Assembly (NCBI RefSeq): GCF_006542375.1
Contig: NZ_CP038143.1
Coordinates: 62,001-126,000, forward strand
Source of the DNA: Oecophyllibacter saccharovorans
Lineage (GTDB): Bacteria; Pseudomonadota; Alphaproteobacteria; Acetobacterales; Acetobacteraceae
Reading direction: 5' to 3'
Length of the DNA stretch: 64,000 bases
In this document: one piece after another, positions 50,954 through 57,901 of the stretch
Numbering within the stretch: position 1 is the first letter of the stretch
Layout: every line of letters starts with the position of its first letter
Made by a program: the position numbers and the translations under genes
The notes under the pieces: generated by a model
Told to the model about the DNA's origin: nothing
The model's database searches: none
What the model saw: only the letters and a program-made list of their open reading frames with translations

Positions 50954-51711
50954 GATATCACGTCCTTACCGGGCAAGGCACCGTTCCGGTCTGACCAATG
51001 GACCAACACCTGCTGAACCAGCATTCGGGTCACTTCATCAGGCTTGAGCAGACCATCAATCCTGCGCACACGCTCCGGATCCCTGGCAGCGATTGTGGCA
51101 AATCCTGCATGAACGCGCCCATGAAAGGCAGTGTCCTGCTGTTCGTAACGATCTTCCGCCCCCCCAGCAACAACAGCGCCTGAACTTTCGCGACGTTTCC
51201 GCAGCCGTTCAGTGGCCACTGCCTGAGGCACATCCAGCCAGAATGTCAGGTCAGGCTCCCTGTTGAGCAGTTTCCGCAGGCTGGCAATGAAGGCCAGCTC
51301 CGCGGGCGACCCTCTTCCCTGCCCGTAACCCTGATAAGCCAGCGTTGAATCGTGAAAGCGATCACAGATGACGATCTCCCCGCGGGTCAGGGCGGGGAGA
51401 ATAAGCCTGTCCAGATGGTCGCAGCGCGCCGCCATGTGGGTCATGATTTCAGCACGCGGCGAAAAATCCGCTTTCCCGAACAACAGAACTTCCCGCAACG
51501 CTTCAGCGCCTGGGGTGCCGCCTGGCTCACGTGTCAGGCAAACAGGCAGCCCGCGTGCTCTCAGGACCTCGGCCAGCAGACGGGCCTGCGTGGATTTACC
51601 AGCGCCTTCGCCGCCTTCAAGCGTTACAAAAAGACCTGAAGCAGGGGGAGTCTGCCCGCCAGTGCGCGCAGTTGTAAGGGCCTGAGCCTCAGAGGGATCA
51701 GGCAGGGGCAT
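50950..51711 (-). CDS. tmk: thymidylate kinase
   Basis: 253 residues from ATG 51711; the frame also opens at 51756. P-loop L-E-G-G-E-G-A-G-K-S-T near 34, then T-R-E-P-G-G-T-P with the DR-like segment, D-R-F-H-D-S-T-L-A-Y-Q-G-Y-G-Q near 115 and a LID with R. It phosphorylates dTMP. Its first ~25 residues are non-conserved and the start overlaps the end of dac by 14 bases, so start choice is soft. It lies between dac and holB, the standard alphaproteobacterial order. Confidence 0.92.
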   Translation of the reverse strand: MPLPDPSEAQALTTARTGGQTPPASGLFVTLEGGEGAGKSTQARLLAEVLRARGLPVCLTREPGGTPGAEALREVLLFGKADFSPRAEIMTHMAARCDHLDRLILPALTRGEIVICDRFHDSTLAYQGYGQGRGSPAELAFIASLRKLLNREPDLTFWLDVPQAVATERLRKRRESSGAVVAGGAEDRYEQQDTAFHGRVHAGFATIAARDPERVRRIDGLLKPDEVTRMLVQQVLVHWSDRNGALPGKDVIS

Positions 51712-52948
51712 GACCCAACCGGGCCAGAGTGCGACCGAGCAGCCCCAGACGCTCAACGCTTACCCCGGCGACCAGAGGCACCTGCCGCGTCAGCTTGCCG
51801 TTGAACCAGATGGAAACCGTGCCGCAGGGCTGACCGGCCTGTATGGGAGCGATGAGGGGCGAGTAATAGTCCACCGTTACGCGCGTCTTGTCACGCCATC
51901 CAGCCGGCACCGTCATGGAGACAGGCTCCGAAGCCAGGAGGGGGATGGTCCTGTGTGTGCCCATCCATACCGGGGCTGCTGGCTCGACCACTTGTCCCTT
52001 GTGGAAGAAGGTCACGGTCTCGAAATTGGCGAAAGCCCAGGACAGCAGGCGTTCCCCTTCACGGGCGCGCTGGTTGGAGGAAGAGGTTCCGTTGATGACA
52101 ACGATCACCCGGTTCCTGTCGCCATCCGCATTCGGGCGCTCGGAGCTGGCACAGAGCCCGAAGCCGCCTGCATCGGTATGGCCGGTCTTGAGACCGTCAG
52201 CCAGCCCCTTGTCCACCAGCACGTTGCGGTTACCCTGCTTGATGCCGTTGAAGGTGAATTCCTTCTCACCGAAGAAGTGATAATATTGCGGGAAATCATG
52301 GACGAGACGACCGGCCAGCACCGCCACATCGCGCGCGGTCATGTAATGGTCGGGCGCAGGCAGCCCGGTGCAGTTCATGAAATGCGAGCCGGTCAGGCCG
52401 ATACGACGCGCCGCTTCATTCATCAGGGCGACAAAGCGCTCCTCAGAGCCGGCAATTCCCTCAGCCAGCACAATGCAGGCATCATTACCGGACTGGATGA
52501 TCATTCCCTGGATGAGATCGGAAACGGAGGCATTGCCCCCCTGCGGCACGAAGGATTTCGACCCCTGCGTACGCCAGGCCCTATCGCTGACCGGCAGCAT
52601 CTGGCCAAGGTGCAGTTTACCGGCCGCCAGGAACGTGAACACCACATAGGCCGTCATCATCTTGGTCAGCGATGAAGGAGGCATGTGCTCATTGCCTGCC
52701 TTGTCGAGCAGGACCGTGCCGGTCGTATGGTCCAGCACGTAAGCCCAGCGCGCGGGGGTCGGCAACGGTCCGACCAGGGTGGCAGCAGGCGTTGCATCCG
52801 CCGCTTCCGCCTCAGCCGCTGCCGCTTTGCCATGCGCATGATGGCCCCTAGCAGCCTGCGCATTCCGCAGGCCCAGCCCTGTCAGGGCAGCGGCTGCGCC
52901 CATGTTCCTGAGAAGAGAACGTCTTGTCTGCACGCTTGTTATCTGCAC
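51698..52948 (-). CDS. D-alanyl-D-alanine carboxypeptidase (low-molecular-weight PBP)
   Basis: 416 residues from GTG 52948. Signal peptide with twin Arg (T-R-R-S-L-L-R-N-M-G-A-A-A-A-L-T) cleaved near A-Q-A; then a His/Ala-rich linker. Active-site motifs of the DacA/PBP5 family are all present: S-S-L-T-K near residue 96, S-G-N-D-A near 155, and K-T-G-H-T near 255. A C-terminal beta domain follows. It trims the last D-Ala from peptidoglycan stem peptides. Earlier open frame to 53047 has no good start signal. Upstream lies the transglycosylase gene. Confidence 0.9.
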   Translation of the reverse strand: MQITSVQTRRSLLRNMGAAAALTGLGLRNAQAARGHHAHGKAAAAEAEAADATPAATLVGPLPTPARWAYVLDHTTGTVLLDKAGNEHMPPSSLTKMMTAYVVFTFLAAGKLHLGQMLPVSDRAWRTQGSKSFVPQGGNASVSDLIQGMIIQSGNDACIVLAEGIAGSEERFVALMNEAARRIGLTGSHFMNCTGLPAPDHYMTARDVAVLAGRLVHDFPQYYHFFGEKEFTFNGIKQGNRNVLVDKGLADGLKTGHTDAGGFGLCASSERPNADGDRNRVIVVINGTSSSNQRAREGERLLSWAFANFETVTFFHKGQVVEPAAPVWMGTHRTIPLLASEPVSMTVPAGWRDKTRVTVDYYSPLIAPIQAGQPCGTVSIWFNGKLTRQVPLVAGVSVERLGLLGRTLARLGHAPA

Positions 52949-53184
52949 GCTCGGGATTCCGTTCCACCTGTTGCCCGGCCGTTCCTCCGCTTTCAGGATG
53001 CCCGGCCTGCAAAGACGGACAAAAGCTGGAAAGCACGGTGCCGGCATGTGATTGTTGACACTGTTTTCCGTTTACTTACCTACTTGCAGTGCAGCACCTG
53101 GTCCAGCCACCTGACACTCTACCGCGCTGCAATCAGATGTTTTTTATCTTCCCAGTGCTGATTGAGACTACAGATTTCCTCTTC

Positions 53185-54219
53185 TCAGGCGGGAACACCC
53201 GTACAGGCATCGCCAAGCAGGCCGACAGCGAGCGCATAATAGTCAGACGGGTTATAGGCACGAATGACATTGAAATTATGGAAAACCAGGAAAGCCTGCC
53301 CTCCCGGGCCATCCGGCTCAAGCAAACGGGCCTGGAGATCAGGCTGAGTGAAGGAGCCGCCGTCCACCGGGCGCACGCCCAGCGCTTCCCAGCTGCTCAC
53401 CGACCGGACCGCTGACTGCCGCGAACCCTTTGCGCCCAACGCTTCAGCTTCACTGCCTTGAGGCACACTGACTTCCGTTCCCCAGCCCTGTCCCTGAATC
53501 CAGTGGCGTCTGCCCAGGTAATTAGCAATGGAGGCGAACACATCCGGCTTGCTCGTCCAGATATTGGGCTTGCCGTCGCCATCCACATCAACGGCATATT
53601 GAAGATAGGCACTGGGCATGAACTGGGGCTGGCCCATCGCGCCCGCATAGCTCCCCAGCATGGTGGAAGGTGCCGCTTCCCCGTCCGAAACGATTCGTAA
53701 GGCCTTGAGCAGCTCGCTTCTGAAGAACTTTGCCCGTCGCCCGTCATAGGCCAGGGTCGCAAGCGCATCGATGACATTGAACTTGCCCAGCGTGGCGCCG
53801 AAGCCTGATTCAAGCCCCCAGATGCCCATCACCACCCCATCAGCGGCGCCATAACGCTGAGCAAGCGGCGTCAGGGTGCCACGAACGTTCTGAAACACCT
53901 GTGCACCTTGCTGCAGCCTGGCTGGCTTGAGCACACGGCTGCGGTACTGCGCCCAGGTCATGGTGAATTCAGGCTGATGCCTGTCCCGCGCCAGGACAGC
54001 CTGATTGGGCGCAGGCGCCATGGCCAGCGCTTCAGTGACAGCCGTGGCTGACAACCCCTCTGCCAGGGCCTGGCTGCGCACCCCTTCGAGAAATTGGCGG
54101 TAACTTTCGCTGGCTGCGGGCGGGCGGGTCATCGGCCGGGCCCGAAGCTGACCGGCAGAAAGGAAAAAACCGGCCATGCAAGCCGTGGAAAGGAAGGTGC
54201 GTCGTTCCAGAAGCGCCAA
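53185..54219 (-). CDS. lytic murein transglycosylase (MltB family)
   Basis: 344 residues from TTG 54219 with AGGAG 7 bases upstream. N-terminal signal peptide (R-R-T-F-L-S-T-A-C-M-A-G-F-F-L-S-A-G). Core MltB/SLT_2 features: G-I-W-G-L-E-S-G-F-G near residue 134 with the catalytic glutamate, then S-Y-A-G-A-M-G-Q-P-Q-F-M-P-S, D-V-D-G-D-G-K-P-N-I-W, and A-N-Y-L-G-R. The Cys in the signal is not in a lipobox, so it is likely soluble in the periplasm. Possible Asn/Tyr end N-P-S-D-Y-Y-A-L-A-V-G. Confidence 0.9.
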   Translation of the reverse strand: MALLERRTFLSTACMAGFFLSAGQLRARPMTRPPAASESYRQFLEGVRSQALAEGLSATAVTEALAMAPAPNQAVLARDRHQPEFTMTWAQYRSRVLKPARLQQGAQVFQNVRGTLTPLAQRYGAADGVVMGIWGLESGFGATLGKFNVIDALATLAYDGRRAKFFRSELLKALRIVSDGEAAPSTMLGSYAGAMGQPQFMPSAYLQYAVDVDGDGKPNIWTSKPDVFASIANYLGRRHWIQGQGWGTEVSVPQGSEAEALGAKGSRQSAVRSVSSWEALGVRPVDGGSFTQPDLQARLLEPDGPGGQAFLVFHNFNVIRAYNPSDYYALAVGLLGDACTGVPA

Positions 54220-54468
54220 GTTTTTTCTCCTCTTTCTGGTCTTCTCTCAGTTTCTCTTTTTACGCTACCCGCGTCAGGTTCTACCGCCTCAGGCCTGGTG
54301 ATAAGAGGCTGAAAACGCCTCCATAGAAGGGCAGTCAGGCGAAACTGCGGCACAGTTACATCACCACCCCGGCAAAAATCCCGCTTTACGGCTGATCTTG
54401 CCTGATCTCCTACCGCCCAACATCCACCGCCTCTTCCACGGGGTCAAAGATTCCTTTAAGGCATTTTT
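54220..54468. other. intergenic region upstream of mltB and of the small ORF
   Basis: About 250 bases with no supported gene. It must hold the leftward promoter of the transglycosylase gene and a rightward promoter for the DedA group. Short GCCTC/GAGGC inverted repeats occur at 54286-54321, but I see no clear promoter. Confidence 0.4.
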
Positions 54469-54627
54469 ATGATCGACCTCCTGCCGTCCCGGCTTTGCCT
54501 GACACAGGCTTTACCTCTCAGCGCGCCCGACCTTTATAAAGGGCGCAAGAGCGGCAAGGCAGGACAGGCCGCCAGATGCCGTCGCCTTCTGAAGGAAGAG
54601 CAGGTTATGAGAAAGCTGGGCATATGA
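54469..54627 (+). CDS. possible 52-residue leader or small protein overlapping the DedA start
   Basis: ATG 54469 is preceded by TTAAGG with a 7-base gap. The 52-codon frame ends in TGA at 54625-54627, overlapping the DedA ATG at 54624 as ATGA, the typical coupling layout. The peptide has a hydrophobic first 20 residues and then a Lys/Arg-rich part (Y-K-G-R-K-S-G-K, C-R-R-L-L-K-E-E). No family recognised. It could be a chance frame or a translated leader. Confidence 0.3.
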   Translation: MIDLLPSRLCLTQALPLSAPDLYKGRKSGKAGQAARCRRLLKEEQVMRKLGI

Positions 54628-55190
54628 TGGGACTGGGGGCCCTTGCTGCCAGCCAGCCAGCCTGGCTGAAGGCTGCGATCGTGATCGCAGGCACTTTCAT
54701 CCTGGAAGATGTGGCCACCGTCCTGAGCGCCATTGCGGTACAGGCGCACCAGATTTCCCTCCCTCTGGCGCTGGGCTCTCTGTATGCAGGGGTGGCGATA
54801 GGCGATATGGGGCTTTACGGGCTCGGCTATGCCGGTTGGCATTGGCCTGCCCTGCGCCGTTTTCTTACCTTGCCTGGCCAGGACAGAACGCGGGAGTGGT
54901 TTCTCAGCCACACGATACGCATCGTTGCCATTTCGCGCTTCGTGCCAGGGGCACGCCTGCCGCTCTATACGGCCTGCGGCTATTTCCGGGTCCCTTTCTG
55001 GAAATTCGCCCTGACGGCCATCTGTGCCACCCTGGTCTGGACGAGTCTGCTTTTTGCCCTGTCCCTCAAGGTAGGGCACTGGCTGCTGCTGCATCAGGCC
55101 GGCTGGCGCTGGGCAGGAATTATCGGTTTCGTGCTTTGCATTTTCGTGATCGGGCGTCTGATCGCCCATTTCCAACGCATGAGCGCTTAA
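54624..55190 (+). CDS. DedA-family (VTT domain) membrane protein
   Basis: 188 residues from ATG 54624; ATG 54576 in the same frame is an alternative. About five hydrophobic segments. The DedA pattern is present: an N-terminal re-entrant part with F-I-L-E-D-V-A-T-V near residue 28, G-D-M-G-L-Y-G-L-G-Y near 60, and the central S-R-F-V-P-G-A-R-L-P motif near 105 with the essential arginines. DedA proteins are lipid scramblases or flippases; some recycle undecaprenyl phosphate. The ATP-grasp gene begins 11 bases downstream. Confidence 0.83.
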   Translation: MMGLGALAASQPAWLKAAIVIAGTFILEDVATVLSAIAVQAHQISLPLALGSLYAGVAIGDMGLYGLGYAGWHWPALRRFLTLPGQDRTREWFLSHTIRIVAISRFVPGARLPLYTACGYFRVPFWKFALTAICATLVWTSLLFALSLKVGHWLLLHQAGWRWAGIIGFVLCIFVIGRLIAHFQRMSA

Positions 55191-55201
55191 GAGGACAGTC
55201 C

Positions 55202-56296
55202 TTGCCAACCATGACCAAAACCGCTCACACGCCTCTGCCCAGGAAACTCAACAGAAAGCAGCTTTCCCTTTTTGAATTCTGGCCTGGCTCCATCTTCTAC
55301 ACCCCCATCGTGCTCTACTGGATTCTCATGGGAATCCGATATCGGGATTTCAGCACACCCACAGCAGCCAATCCCCGCATCACGACCGGTGGGCTCTGTG
55401 GCGAAAGCAAAAGCTCCATCCTGTCCATGGCTGGCCCGACAGCCCGTGAAGCGATTGCCCCTTACGTTGCTTTCCGCAGCGGGCCGCAAGCCTGCGCTAC
55501 CGCTCTGCGCGCCATGAAGCAGGCAGGGATAGACTTCCCGGTCGTCATCAAACCCGATATCGGCTGCAAGGGTACCGGGATCAAACTTGTCCAGGACCGC
55601 GCCATGCTGGCCGAAGTGCTGCCCCTTTTTCCTGATGGGGTCATGCTTCTGGCGCAGAAGCTCGTGGCCTATCCACTGGAAGCGGGGATTTTCTATATCC
55701 GCCATCCCGGCGAGAAAACCGGTCATCTGACTTCGATCACCTACAAGGAAACCCCTACCCTGACCGGCAACGGACGCGCCACCCTGCGAGAACTGATCCT
55801 CCAGGACCCGCGCATGGGGCTCGTTCCCCAGATCTACCTACCGCGTCTGGGCAAACGGGCTGATGAAGTCATTCCCGCAGGCCAGCAGGTGCCCGTTGTC
55901 TTTGCCGGCAATCATTGCCGTGGCGCCATATTTCGCGATGGACGTGCCGATATCACTCCTGAACTGACAGCGCGCATCAACGCCATCATGAGCGATATCC
56001 CGGATTTCCACTTCGGCCGCATCGACGCCAAAGTGGCCTCCGTGGAGGACCTGAAATCCGGGCGCAACCTGCAGATTATCGAAATCAATGGGGTCGGTTC
56101 AGAGGCCATTCACATCTGGGACCGCCATACCACCCTGTGGGAAGCCTACCGCACCCAGTTCTATCATTACCGGCAGACCTTTCTTATCGGCGCTGCCAAG
56201 AAAAAGGAAGGGTGGAAAAGCTCCGGGGCTTTCGGAATGCTGTGGGCCTGGCGCAAACAGCGCCGCCTGCTCTCCTCCTATCCCCTCAACGACTGA
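55202..56296 (+). CDS. membrane-anchored ATP-grasp protein of unknown substrate
   Basis: 364 residues from TTG 55202 (GAGG 7 bases upstream); ATG 55211 is the alternative. Near residues 27-47 is a likely membrane anchor (F-E-F-W-P-G-S-I-F-Y-T-P-I-V-L-Y-W-I-L). The rest is an ATP-grasp ligase fold: F-P-V-V-I-K-P-D-I-G-C-K-G-T-G near 115, A-Q-K-L-V, G-N-G-R-A-T-L-R, F-G-R-I-D-A-K near 275 and the metal-binding I-I-E-I-N-G-V-G-S near 295. Such proteins are often labelled D-Ala-D-Ala ligase-like, but the membrane anchor and missing N-domain argue against that. It follows the DedA gene by 11 bases, so the two likely act together. Confidence 0.78.
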   Translation: MPTMTKTAHTPLPRKLNRKQLSLFEFWPGSIFYTPIVLYWILMGIRYRDFSTPTAANPRITTGGLCGESKSSILSMAGPTAREAIAPYVAFRSGPQACATALRAMKQAGIDFPVVIKPDIGCKGTGIKLVQDRAMLAEVLPLFPDGVMLLAQKLVAYPLEAGIFYIRHPGEKTGHLTSITYKETPTLTGNGRATLRELILQDPRMGLVPQIYLPRLGKRADEVIPAGQQVPVVFAGNHCRGAIFRDGRADITPELTARINAIMSDIPDFHFGRIDAKVASVEDLKSGRNLQIIEINGVGSEAIHIWDRHTTLWEAYRTQFYHYRQTFLIGAAKKKEGWKSSGAFGMLWAWRKQRRLLSSYPLND

Positions 56297-56301
56297 TCCG
56301 C

Positions 56302-56760
56302 TCAGAGCTTTCCGGCGCCAAAGATATAGTTGCTGATCTGCTGTTCCAGTGAAAGAAGCGGGCGGGCATTCGTTATGACCGCACCCGGCTTCAGCAGATC
56401 CTGGCTTTTGCCGGGCAGAAGCTGCAGCGCGTTGTTGCCGCCAATTCCCAGGGCGCCGATCGTAACGGCTGTATCAACCGGCAGCTTCAGGGACTGATCG
56501 ACCGTAAACGCTACGTCTGCCATGTCTGTCCGGGTATTGAGCACCACATCATTGACCCGGCCGACCACTACGCCATCAAGAGCGACATCATCGCCCCCCT
56601 GCAGGCCGCTGGCAGAGATGAAGACTGCCCTGTAGGGTGTTTGCGGACCAACAGGGCCCTGCCGCAGGGTCAGGGCATAGAAAAGAAAAACGCCTGTCAG
56701 AACCAGAACCAGCATGCTGGCGGCAAAGGCCACGCCACGTCCCCCGAACACGCCTTTCAT
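56302..56760 (-). CDS. MlaD-family protein (MCE domain)
   Basis: 152 residues. One N-terminal membrane segment (A-A-S-M-L-V-L-V-L-T-G-V-F-L-F-Y) followed by a single MCE domain: Y-R-A-V-F-I-S-A-S-G-L-Q-x-G-D-D-V, G-V-V-V-G-R-V, and I-G-A-L-G-I-G-G-N-N-A-L-Q-L-L-P-G. MlaD forms the periplasmic ring of the Mla phospholipid transporter, normally with MlaE and MlaF; neither is here. A strong ribosome site (AGGAGG, 7 bases from ATG) is present. Convergent with the ATP-grasp gene. Confidence 0.85.
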   Translation of the reverse strand: MKGVFGGRGVAFAASMLVLVLTGVFLFYALTLRQGPVGPQTPYRAVFISASGLQGGDDVALDGVVVGRVNDVVLNTRTDMADVAFTVDQSLKLPVDTAVTIGALGIGGNNALQLLPGKSQDLLKPGAVITNARPLLSLEQQISNYIFGAGKL

Positions 56761-57028
56761 CTGTTCCCTCCTGCTGTCAAACTGCTCTTTCCTTCATTCT
56801 GTAAGATCCGTCTGATCCTGGCAGAGAGCGCCATTTGCGTTTTCATGCAGGGGAAAATACACCCTGAAGTTCCTTCGTGCCACTTCTCCGGCTTCTTTCA
56901 AAGACTGCCAGCTGATGGAAGTCTTTTTCAAAAAGGATCGGCAGCGTCTGAAGAAAACCGGGACGACAAAGTCAATTCCACTATAGGGTGCAGCTCACCG
57001 GTCAGCCACAGGAAAAAGGAACGCATTC

Positions 57029-57901
57029 ATGGATGCAGGAAGTCCCATGTCCACTTATCAGGCCGTCATTCTGGCCATCGTTCAGGGCATAACGGAGCCT
57101 TTCCCGGTCAGCAGCCTGGGCCATGCCGTCCTGCTGCCTGCCGTCCTGCACTGGCACATTGATGAACACTCCCCTCTCTTCCTGCCTTTCCTGACTATGT
57201 TGCACGTGGGAACACTCCTGGCGCTGGCCAGCGTGTTCTGGAAGGACTGGAAGACGATTTTTCTCGGCCTGATCGGCAGGCTCGGCCCCCAGGGGCGCGA
57301 TGACGCCCTGCGCATGTGCATTCTGCTTGCCATCGCCACCCTGCCGGCTGTCATCGTCGGGGGGCTTTTCGAGCACCGGTTGCGCCAGGTCTTCGCCACT
57401 CCCCTGCTGGTGGCAGGATTCCTGGTCCTCAACGGCTTTCTGCTCCTGGGCACTGAGTGGCTTCTGCGCCGCGCGCGCCTGCGTGCCAATCAGAATCTTG
57501 ATACGCTGATGCCCAAAGACGCCTTCATCATCGGCTGCTGGCAGTGCCTGGCACTTCTGCCAGGGCTCTCGCGCTCAGGCGCCACCATGAACGGAGGCCT
57601 GACACGCGGCCTCGACCACCTCAATGCAGCACGTTTCTCTCTGCTGATGGCGCAGCCGATCATTCTCGCCGCCTCTGTCAAGGAAAGCTGGCAGATCCGC
57701 AATCTGTCTCTTTCTTATGAGATCCTCTATCAATCCCTTCTTGGCGCCCTGATCGCTGGGTTCACGGCGTGGCTCTGCTCGAAATTTCTCCTGAAATTCT
57801 TCCACCATACTGATGCCGAGGGCGACACCCAGGCGCTGGCGCCTTTCGGAATTTACTGCATCAGCGCTGGCTGCCTGGCCGCTTTCGTGATTTCCCGCTG
57901 A
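57029..57901 (+). CDS. uppP: undecaprenyl-diphosphatase-like protein (UppP/BacA family, divergent)
   Basis: 290 residues with about eight hydrophobic segments. Signature 1 reads Q-G-I-T-E-P-F-P-V-S-S-L-G-H (near residue 18) where most UppP have F-L-P-I-S-S-T-G-H; signature 2 is L-L-P-G-L-S-R-S-G-A-T-M near 175. The catalytic Glu, Ser-Ser, His and Arg positions are kept. It recycles undecaprenyl pyrophosphate for cell-wall synthesis. The L-G-H/P-V-S-S variant is a known separate branch of the family. AGGA 9 bases before ATG. Confidence 0.87.
   Translation: MDAGSPMSTYQAVILAIVQGITEPFPVSSLGHAVLLPAVLHWHIDEHSPLFLPFLTMLHVGTLLALASVFWKDWKTIFLGLIGRLGPQGRDDALRMCILLAIATLPAVIVGGLFEHRLRQVFATPLLVAGFLVLNGFLLLGTEWLLRRARLRANQNLDTLMPKDAFIIGCWQCLALLPGLSRSGATMNGGLTRGLDHLNAARFSLLMAQPIILAASVKESWQIRNLSLSYEILYQSLLGALIAGFTAWLCSKFLLKFFHHTDAEGDTQALAPFGIYCISAGCLAAFVISR

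Follow-up and report, generated by a model that had tools for sequence, protein, structure and literature searches.

A conserved DedA and ATP-grasp gene pair linked to ornithine-lipid genes: a possible system for making and moving double-headed amino-acid lipids

Several enzymes that build or modify ornithine lipids have been described. The accessible portions of the papers cited here present OlsF as a protein with a PF19576 N-terminus and an OlsB-like C-terminus (PMC11631085), encoded in Vibrio cholerae by VCA0646 as the last of four genes (PMC12186959), and give OlsG and OlsH/OlsI as ornithine-lipid modifying enzymes, OlsH being an ATP-dependent, GH3-like amide synthetase and OlsI a planctomycete alpha/beta hydrolase that acts as an ornithine-lipid O-acyltransferase (PMC12493201). 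The ornithine-taurine lipid that Gluconobacter cerinus makes, cerilipin (Tahara 1976, as cited by PMC6669457 and PMC4484230), is named in the accessible text of PMC12493201, PMC6669457, PMC4484230, PMC10191378 and PMC11001654, one of which lists taurine transfer among the ornithine-lipid modifications. No gene for cerilipin or an ornithine-taurine lipid was found in the accessible parts of the literature searched, which covers few of the subscription journals, so that such a gene could have been missed; DedA and ornithine lipid are not mentioned together in that same literature, whereas DedA and ATP-grasp share three papers, each term appearing there once or twice. As for the DedA family, some members are undecaprenyl phosphate flippases, for example PA4029, according to the available part of PMC12893004.

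The window analysed here is a stretch of 64,000 nucleotides (G000:C1:62001-126000) within a 1.94-Mb genome. Among the loci recovered, the closest named relatives of this genome are Acetobacteraceae (Gluconobacter, Saccharibacter, Bombella and Asaia). On the plus strand, a gene for a DedA/VTT-domain membrane protein of 188 aa (54624..55190) is followed by a gene for an ATP-grasp ligase of 361 aa when read from ATG 55211 (55211..56296). Both have alternative starts: the DedA protein would be 204 aa long if begun at the in-frame ATG 54576, and the ligase 364 aa if begun at TTG 55202, which GAGGA precedes. The DedA stop lies 11 bases from this TTG and 20 bases from the ATG, so an earlier note on this DNA, which had placed the ligase gene 11 bases after DedA with its own ribosome site, is borne out at the TTG start; it was equally accurate in putting uppP about 730 bases further on, since this gene for a BacA-type undecaprenyl pyrophosphate phosphatase (57029..57901, plus strand; Pfam BacA, 6.3e-67) starts 732 bases past the ligase stop. 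A convergent MlaD-domain gene (56302..56760, minus strand; Pfam MlaD, 2.4e-12) is outside the transcription unit of the pair. A scan for promoters and terminators returned no promoter-like site (expectation 1.0) and a single terminator-like site (expectation 3.2), which lies on the minus strand. The whole segment from 51698 to 57901, comprising PBP5, SLT, the pair, the MlaD-like gene and uppP, is a neighbourhood conserved in Acetobacteraceae.

A frame of 52 codons (54469..54627, plus strand), whose TGA overlaps the DedA ATG at 54624, had been proposed as a coupled small gene of the same unit. The frame and its ATGA overlap do exist, but the gene found no support: tblastn at E up to 1 gave zero matches in 63 related loci, and the frame ahead of the stop ranges from 1 to 193 codons in relatives. 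What recurs among these is a stop at +1 of DedA, and this recurrence, like the ATGA overlap, arises because DedA itself starts with ATGA or GTGA. The frame was rejected as a gene on these grounds and is probably not one.

The upstream protein of the pair belongs to the DedA/VTT family, scoring 41.4 bits against the Pfam VTT_dom cut-off of 33.9 (E 2.4e-10). Residues R105, P108, R111, E28, D29 and D61 are invariant in an alignment of 18 relatives, which preserves the R-x-x-P-x-x-R stretch; this stretch and the acidic residues are functional in DedA proteins. The UptA match (E 7.4e-06) is weak and stays far below the cut-offs of the NCBIfam equivalog models, at 26.2 bits where 250 are required and at 21.4 where 300 are. 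Comparison of the predicted DedA model with solved structures returned nothing at E up to 0.001 (best 2.3), a result that is not informative against its fold. The genome encodes two further VTT proteins.

The predicted model of the downstream protein (pLDDT 88.6) has an ATP-grasp fold, and the best match in a structure search was cyanophycin synthetase 1, an amide-forming ligase, over its ATP-grasp region (Z 16.5, rmsd 4.7, 275 residues aligned), with the CphA1 rows running from Z 16.5 to 15.2 and LysX/ArgX at Z 15.0, at about 15-17% identity. Profile searching gave generic ATP-grasp matches, with CphA2 at 3e-07, and searching solved structures with the single protein gave chance matches only. 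K114, D272, E291 and N293 are invariant across 22 aligned relatives, as befits a member of the ATP-grasp group, and are by motif the residues that we take to bind ATP and metal; the earlier note was thus right to call the K-P, D and E-x-N motifs intact. It was also right in separating the protein from the D-Ala-D-Ala ligase layout, since no such model is among its Pfam matches or among its NCBIfam matches at E up to 1. Assignment to RimK (20.9 bits against an NCBIfam cut-off of 143.4) or to cyanophycin synthetase (15.6 bits against 850) was likewise rejected; all three families are still related to the ligase by fold. The protein reaches none of the curated cut-offs for named enzyme families. 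Of the N-terminal membrane anchor that had been claimed, the helix itself (residues 27-43) is present, conserved and aromatic, but its Kyte-Doolittle peak is just 1.29, so that a spanning anchor is unclear and an in-plane helix equally likely.

The DedA and ATP-grasp genes are a real, conserved module, beyond chance. The 150 loci scored hold 114 distinct ligase sequences, and DedA lies immediately upstream on the same strand in 94 of these and is fused to the ligase in a single frame in 5 (L086, L089, L095, L106 and L142), an affirmative answer to the adjacency test set beforehand, which asked whether the two genes are neighbours in other genomes. For two others an inverted DedA lies about 1.08 kb off, past an alpha/beta hydrolase gene, and for 13 no DedA was found at the locus. 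Among the first 64 loci, which include some genomes twice, 63 have a DedA match just ahead of the ligase, many with stop/start overlaps or gaps of a few bases, and the remaining one, L026, retains a remnant of the DedA N-terminus. A tree was built from 95 of the 114 ligases, leaving out 18 close relatives and one fragment; it requires three changes to explain the fusions, and it scatters the rows that have an ols gene nearby over three separate places. One locus counted among the 94, from Azospirillum thermophilum (L161; 7255-8912), may be a broken fusion, because its tree neighbours are fusions and its annotated VTT and ligase genes overlap. Separately, L141 (G010:C106) has an N-terminal DedA remnant alone upstream of 10512 on the minus strand, through partner decay or an assembly fault.

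In the family Acetobacteraceae, 47 of the 120 genomes have a ligase match. In the class Alphaproteobacteria 83 of 385 genomes do at an E cut-off of 0.001; 31 of these matches are strong (<1e-60), and the remainder are short or weak ATP-grasp stretches. At 1e-20, 14 of 398 genomes of the phylum have a match, ten of them outside Alphaproteobacteria, and in the family f203, which we infer to be Vibrionaceae because coordinates in two of its genomes (G868 and G923) agree with those of Salinivibrio and Photobacterium records, the count is 52 of 121. Plasmid records carry the ligase in 28 of 72,556 cases (Paracoccus, Komagataeibacter, Azospirillum, Salinivibrio, Vibrio, Photobacterium and Variovorax), and phage records gave no ligase match.

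Other neighbours of the ligase were also seen. At L139:7393-9378, L145:8076-9930 and L162:6082-7894, which represent Komagataeibacter plasmids and G042, no DedA was found, and a Haem_oxygenas_2 iron redox enzyme and a SAM methyltransferase adjoin the ligase, possibly for another conjugate. Genes for a TauE/SafE-family exporter and Alph_Pro_TM lie directly upstream of a DedA-less ligase at L121:592-2326. YqcI/YcgG and DUF1989 genes stand just upstream of the ligase at L120:7659-9356 and L137:2300-2932, with homologous ORFs in L122, and L120 and L122 additionally have an SDR gene. None of the genes tabulated in PMC8319176 as unique to roseobacter sulfur-aminolipid producers is annotated as ATP-grasp or DedA; a DUF1989 entry in that table is reminiscent of the DUF1989 gene next to the ligase at L120 and L137.

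Outside Alphaproteobacteria, and only there, the ligase is physically linked to genes for ornithine-lipid synthesis. In Vibrio-type loci DedA and the ligase are followed in turn by DinB-like, TANGO2/NRDE-like and YHS-domain genes, then, where it occurs, by one for a small protein, and finally by a gene whose product of about 588 aa combines Acyltransf_2 (PF19576) and Acetyltransf_5 domains; we call this gene OlsF-like because its domain make-up equals that of OlsF. In each of the ten genomes found outside the class, which span five families, the OlsF-like gene and the ligase are 10 to 2294 bases apart; at one locus (L130) it directly follows the ligase and no DedA was found, and at another (L135) it precedes a DedA-ligase fusion. 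An OlsB-type gene directly follows the ligase on a Variovorax plasmid, again with no DedA found. Over the 14 distinct non-alphaproteobacterial sequences (L096-L098, L100-L106, L144 and L157-L159), OlsF or OlsB lies within 2.4 kb in 13, the Salinivibrio locus L144 being the one without. Within f203, OlsF is within 7 kb of the ligase in 45 of 52 carriers, elsewhere only in 6, which are Salinivibrio-type genomes (all genus g561), and absent from 1; its presence in 51 of the 52 carriers against 31 of 69 other genomes gives a Fisher p of 3.1e-11, a value to be read with the caution that genomes of one family are not independent.

For the class as a whole, an OlsB-type PF13444 gene is present in 30 of the 31 strong ligase carriers and in 223 of 354 other genomes (p 3.7e-5; 1.1e-4 after removal of the window's own family), with the caveat that both genes may be missing from genomes that are small or incomplete; the one strong carrier without PF13444 (G341) is a 57% complete genome. 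Near the ligase itself, no OlsF or OlsB match was found in 19 alphaproteobacterial regions (L107-L125). The family of the window cannot discriminate in this respect, since OlsB is near universal there (117 of 120 genomes, and 46 of 47 ligase carriers), and in the window genome the OlsB-type gene lies about 1.0 Mb from the pair. An alpha/beta hydrolase gene is directly upstream of DedA in seven of the same 19 regions (L108-L113 and L115). A gene for a YHS-domain protein is found repeatedly close to the pair, in alphaproteobacterial as well as Vibrio-type loci (L126:11845-12291, L089, L112, L114, L115 and L127-L134).

Taken together, the pair probably has an aminolipid role. The best explanation overall, for which we see an even chance of being right, is that a membrane ligase amidates an ornithine lipid and DedA moves the lipid. 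The ligase would be a membrane-associated carboxylate-amine ligase modifying ornithine lipids made by OlsB/OlsA or by OlsF. Working on the cytoplasmic side of the membrane, it would use ATP to activate a carboxylate and would join this to a small amine to form an amide; given the tie to ornithine-lipid synthesis, the simplest such carboxylate is the one left free on the ornithine head group. DedA would bind the ornithine lipid or carry it through the inner membrane, and this would account for the tight gene coupling and the repeated fusion; its family and the fusions suggest the carrier role. For acetic acid bacteria, cerilipin would be the best candidate as the product, and other lineages may use other amines. 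The pair is present in G. cerinus NBRC 3267 (L045), and in an ornithine-taurine lipid the taurine sits on the ornithine carboxyl, in agreement with its chemistry; that taurine is the amine used in acetic acid bacteria is possible, if somewhat doubtful. In its fullest form, in which DedA and the ATP-grasp protein together supply the missing machinery for synthesis and transport of double-headed amino-acid lipids, with taurine or another amine joined and the DedA domain carrying the lipid across, the proposal is tentative and rather doubtful.

The earlier note had suggested a lipid-linked envelope compound, and of this a membrane-lipid role is likely and the undecaprenyl connection less supported. 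The pair would in that case act on an undecaprenyl-linked or peptidoglycan intermediate, with DedA recycling undecaprenyl phosphate and the ligase extending a cell-wall precursor by an amino acid or an amine. Synteny keeps this idea alive at lower probability, because in the 63 family loci homologues accompany the pair for uppP in 56, the MlaD-like gene in 54, SLT in 43 and PBP5 in 27 (lower bounds, the flanks being at most 1.5 to 5 kb), and the flipping of undecaprenyl phosphate by some DedA proteins and the weak UptA match also speak for it. Yet the surroundings with uppP, SLT and PBP5 may be plain family synteny, the linkage outside Alphaproteobacteria is to OlsF or OlsB, and the two other VTT proteins of the genome could do the undecaprenyl phosphate job, so we regard a cell-wall substrate as unlikely.

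The gene linkage fits equally well with a reaction in the reverse direction, in which the ligase would activate the carboxyl of an amino acid and join it to the free delta-amine of the ornithine lipid, and ATP-grasp ligases do differ in which partner gives the carboxylate. The lipid of G. cerinus, as described in the accessible literature, argues against this, for taurine has no carboxyl and the ornithine carboxyl is needed, which makes the reverse direction quite unlikely. Very unlikely, finally, is a soluble head group made first, for example an ornithine-amine conjugate that OlsB or OlsF would then acylate: these enzymes would acylate the alpha-amine and could accept a pre-formed amide, and on the Variovorax plasmid and in L130 the ligase adjoins OlsB or OlsF with no DedA found, but the conserved aromatic N-terminal helix and the DedA fusions place the ligase at the membrane.

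Amidation of the ornithine lipid at the membrane, followed by its movement by DedA, makes the pair a candidate for the enzyme activity by which ornithine lipids acquire a second head group, taurine for example. If true, it would give a DedA protein an aminolipid substrate, the fusion proteins would combine lipid ligation and putative lipid carriage in one chain, and aminolipid head-group chemistry would extend to Vibrionaceae, Azospirillum, Paracoccus and others.

Compared with the undecaprenyl phosphate flippases UptA and PA4029, the DedA protein shares the VTT domain and a weak match to the UptA model, but it scores far under the UptA cut-offs and is coupled or fused to an ATP-grasp ligase. 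The ligase has in common with cyanophycin synthetase and the LysX/RimK-type ligases its ATP-grasp fold and the CphA2 profile match, and departs from them in its low identity (about 15-17%), in falling short of the NCBIfam cut-offs, in its N-terminal aromatic helix and in its DedA partner. With OlsB, OlsF, OlsG and OlsH/OlsI, as the accessible sources describe them, the pair shares neighbourhoods and co-occurrence, and OlsH likewise forms amides with ATP; OlsH is GH3-like, however, rather than ATP-grasp, and the ligase belongs to none of these families. The tie between the pair and cerilipin, a lipid reported in 1976, is hypothetical, no gene being named for this lipid in the accessible parts of the literature searched; with a candidate pair in acetic acid bacteria that are easy to grow, the question becomes testable. 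G. cerinus carries the pair, and the ornithine-taurine amide is the type of bond that an ATP-grasp ligase forms.
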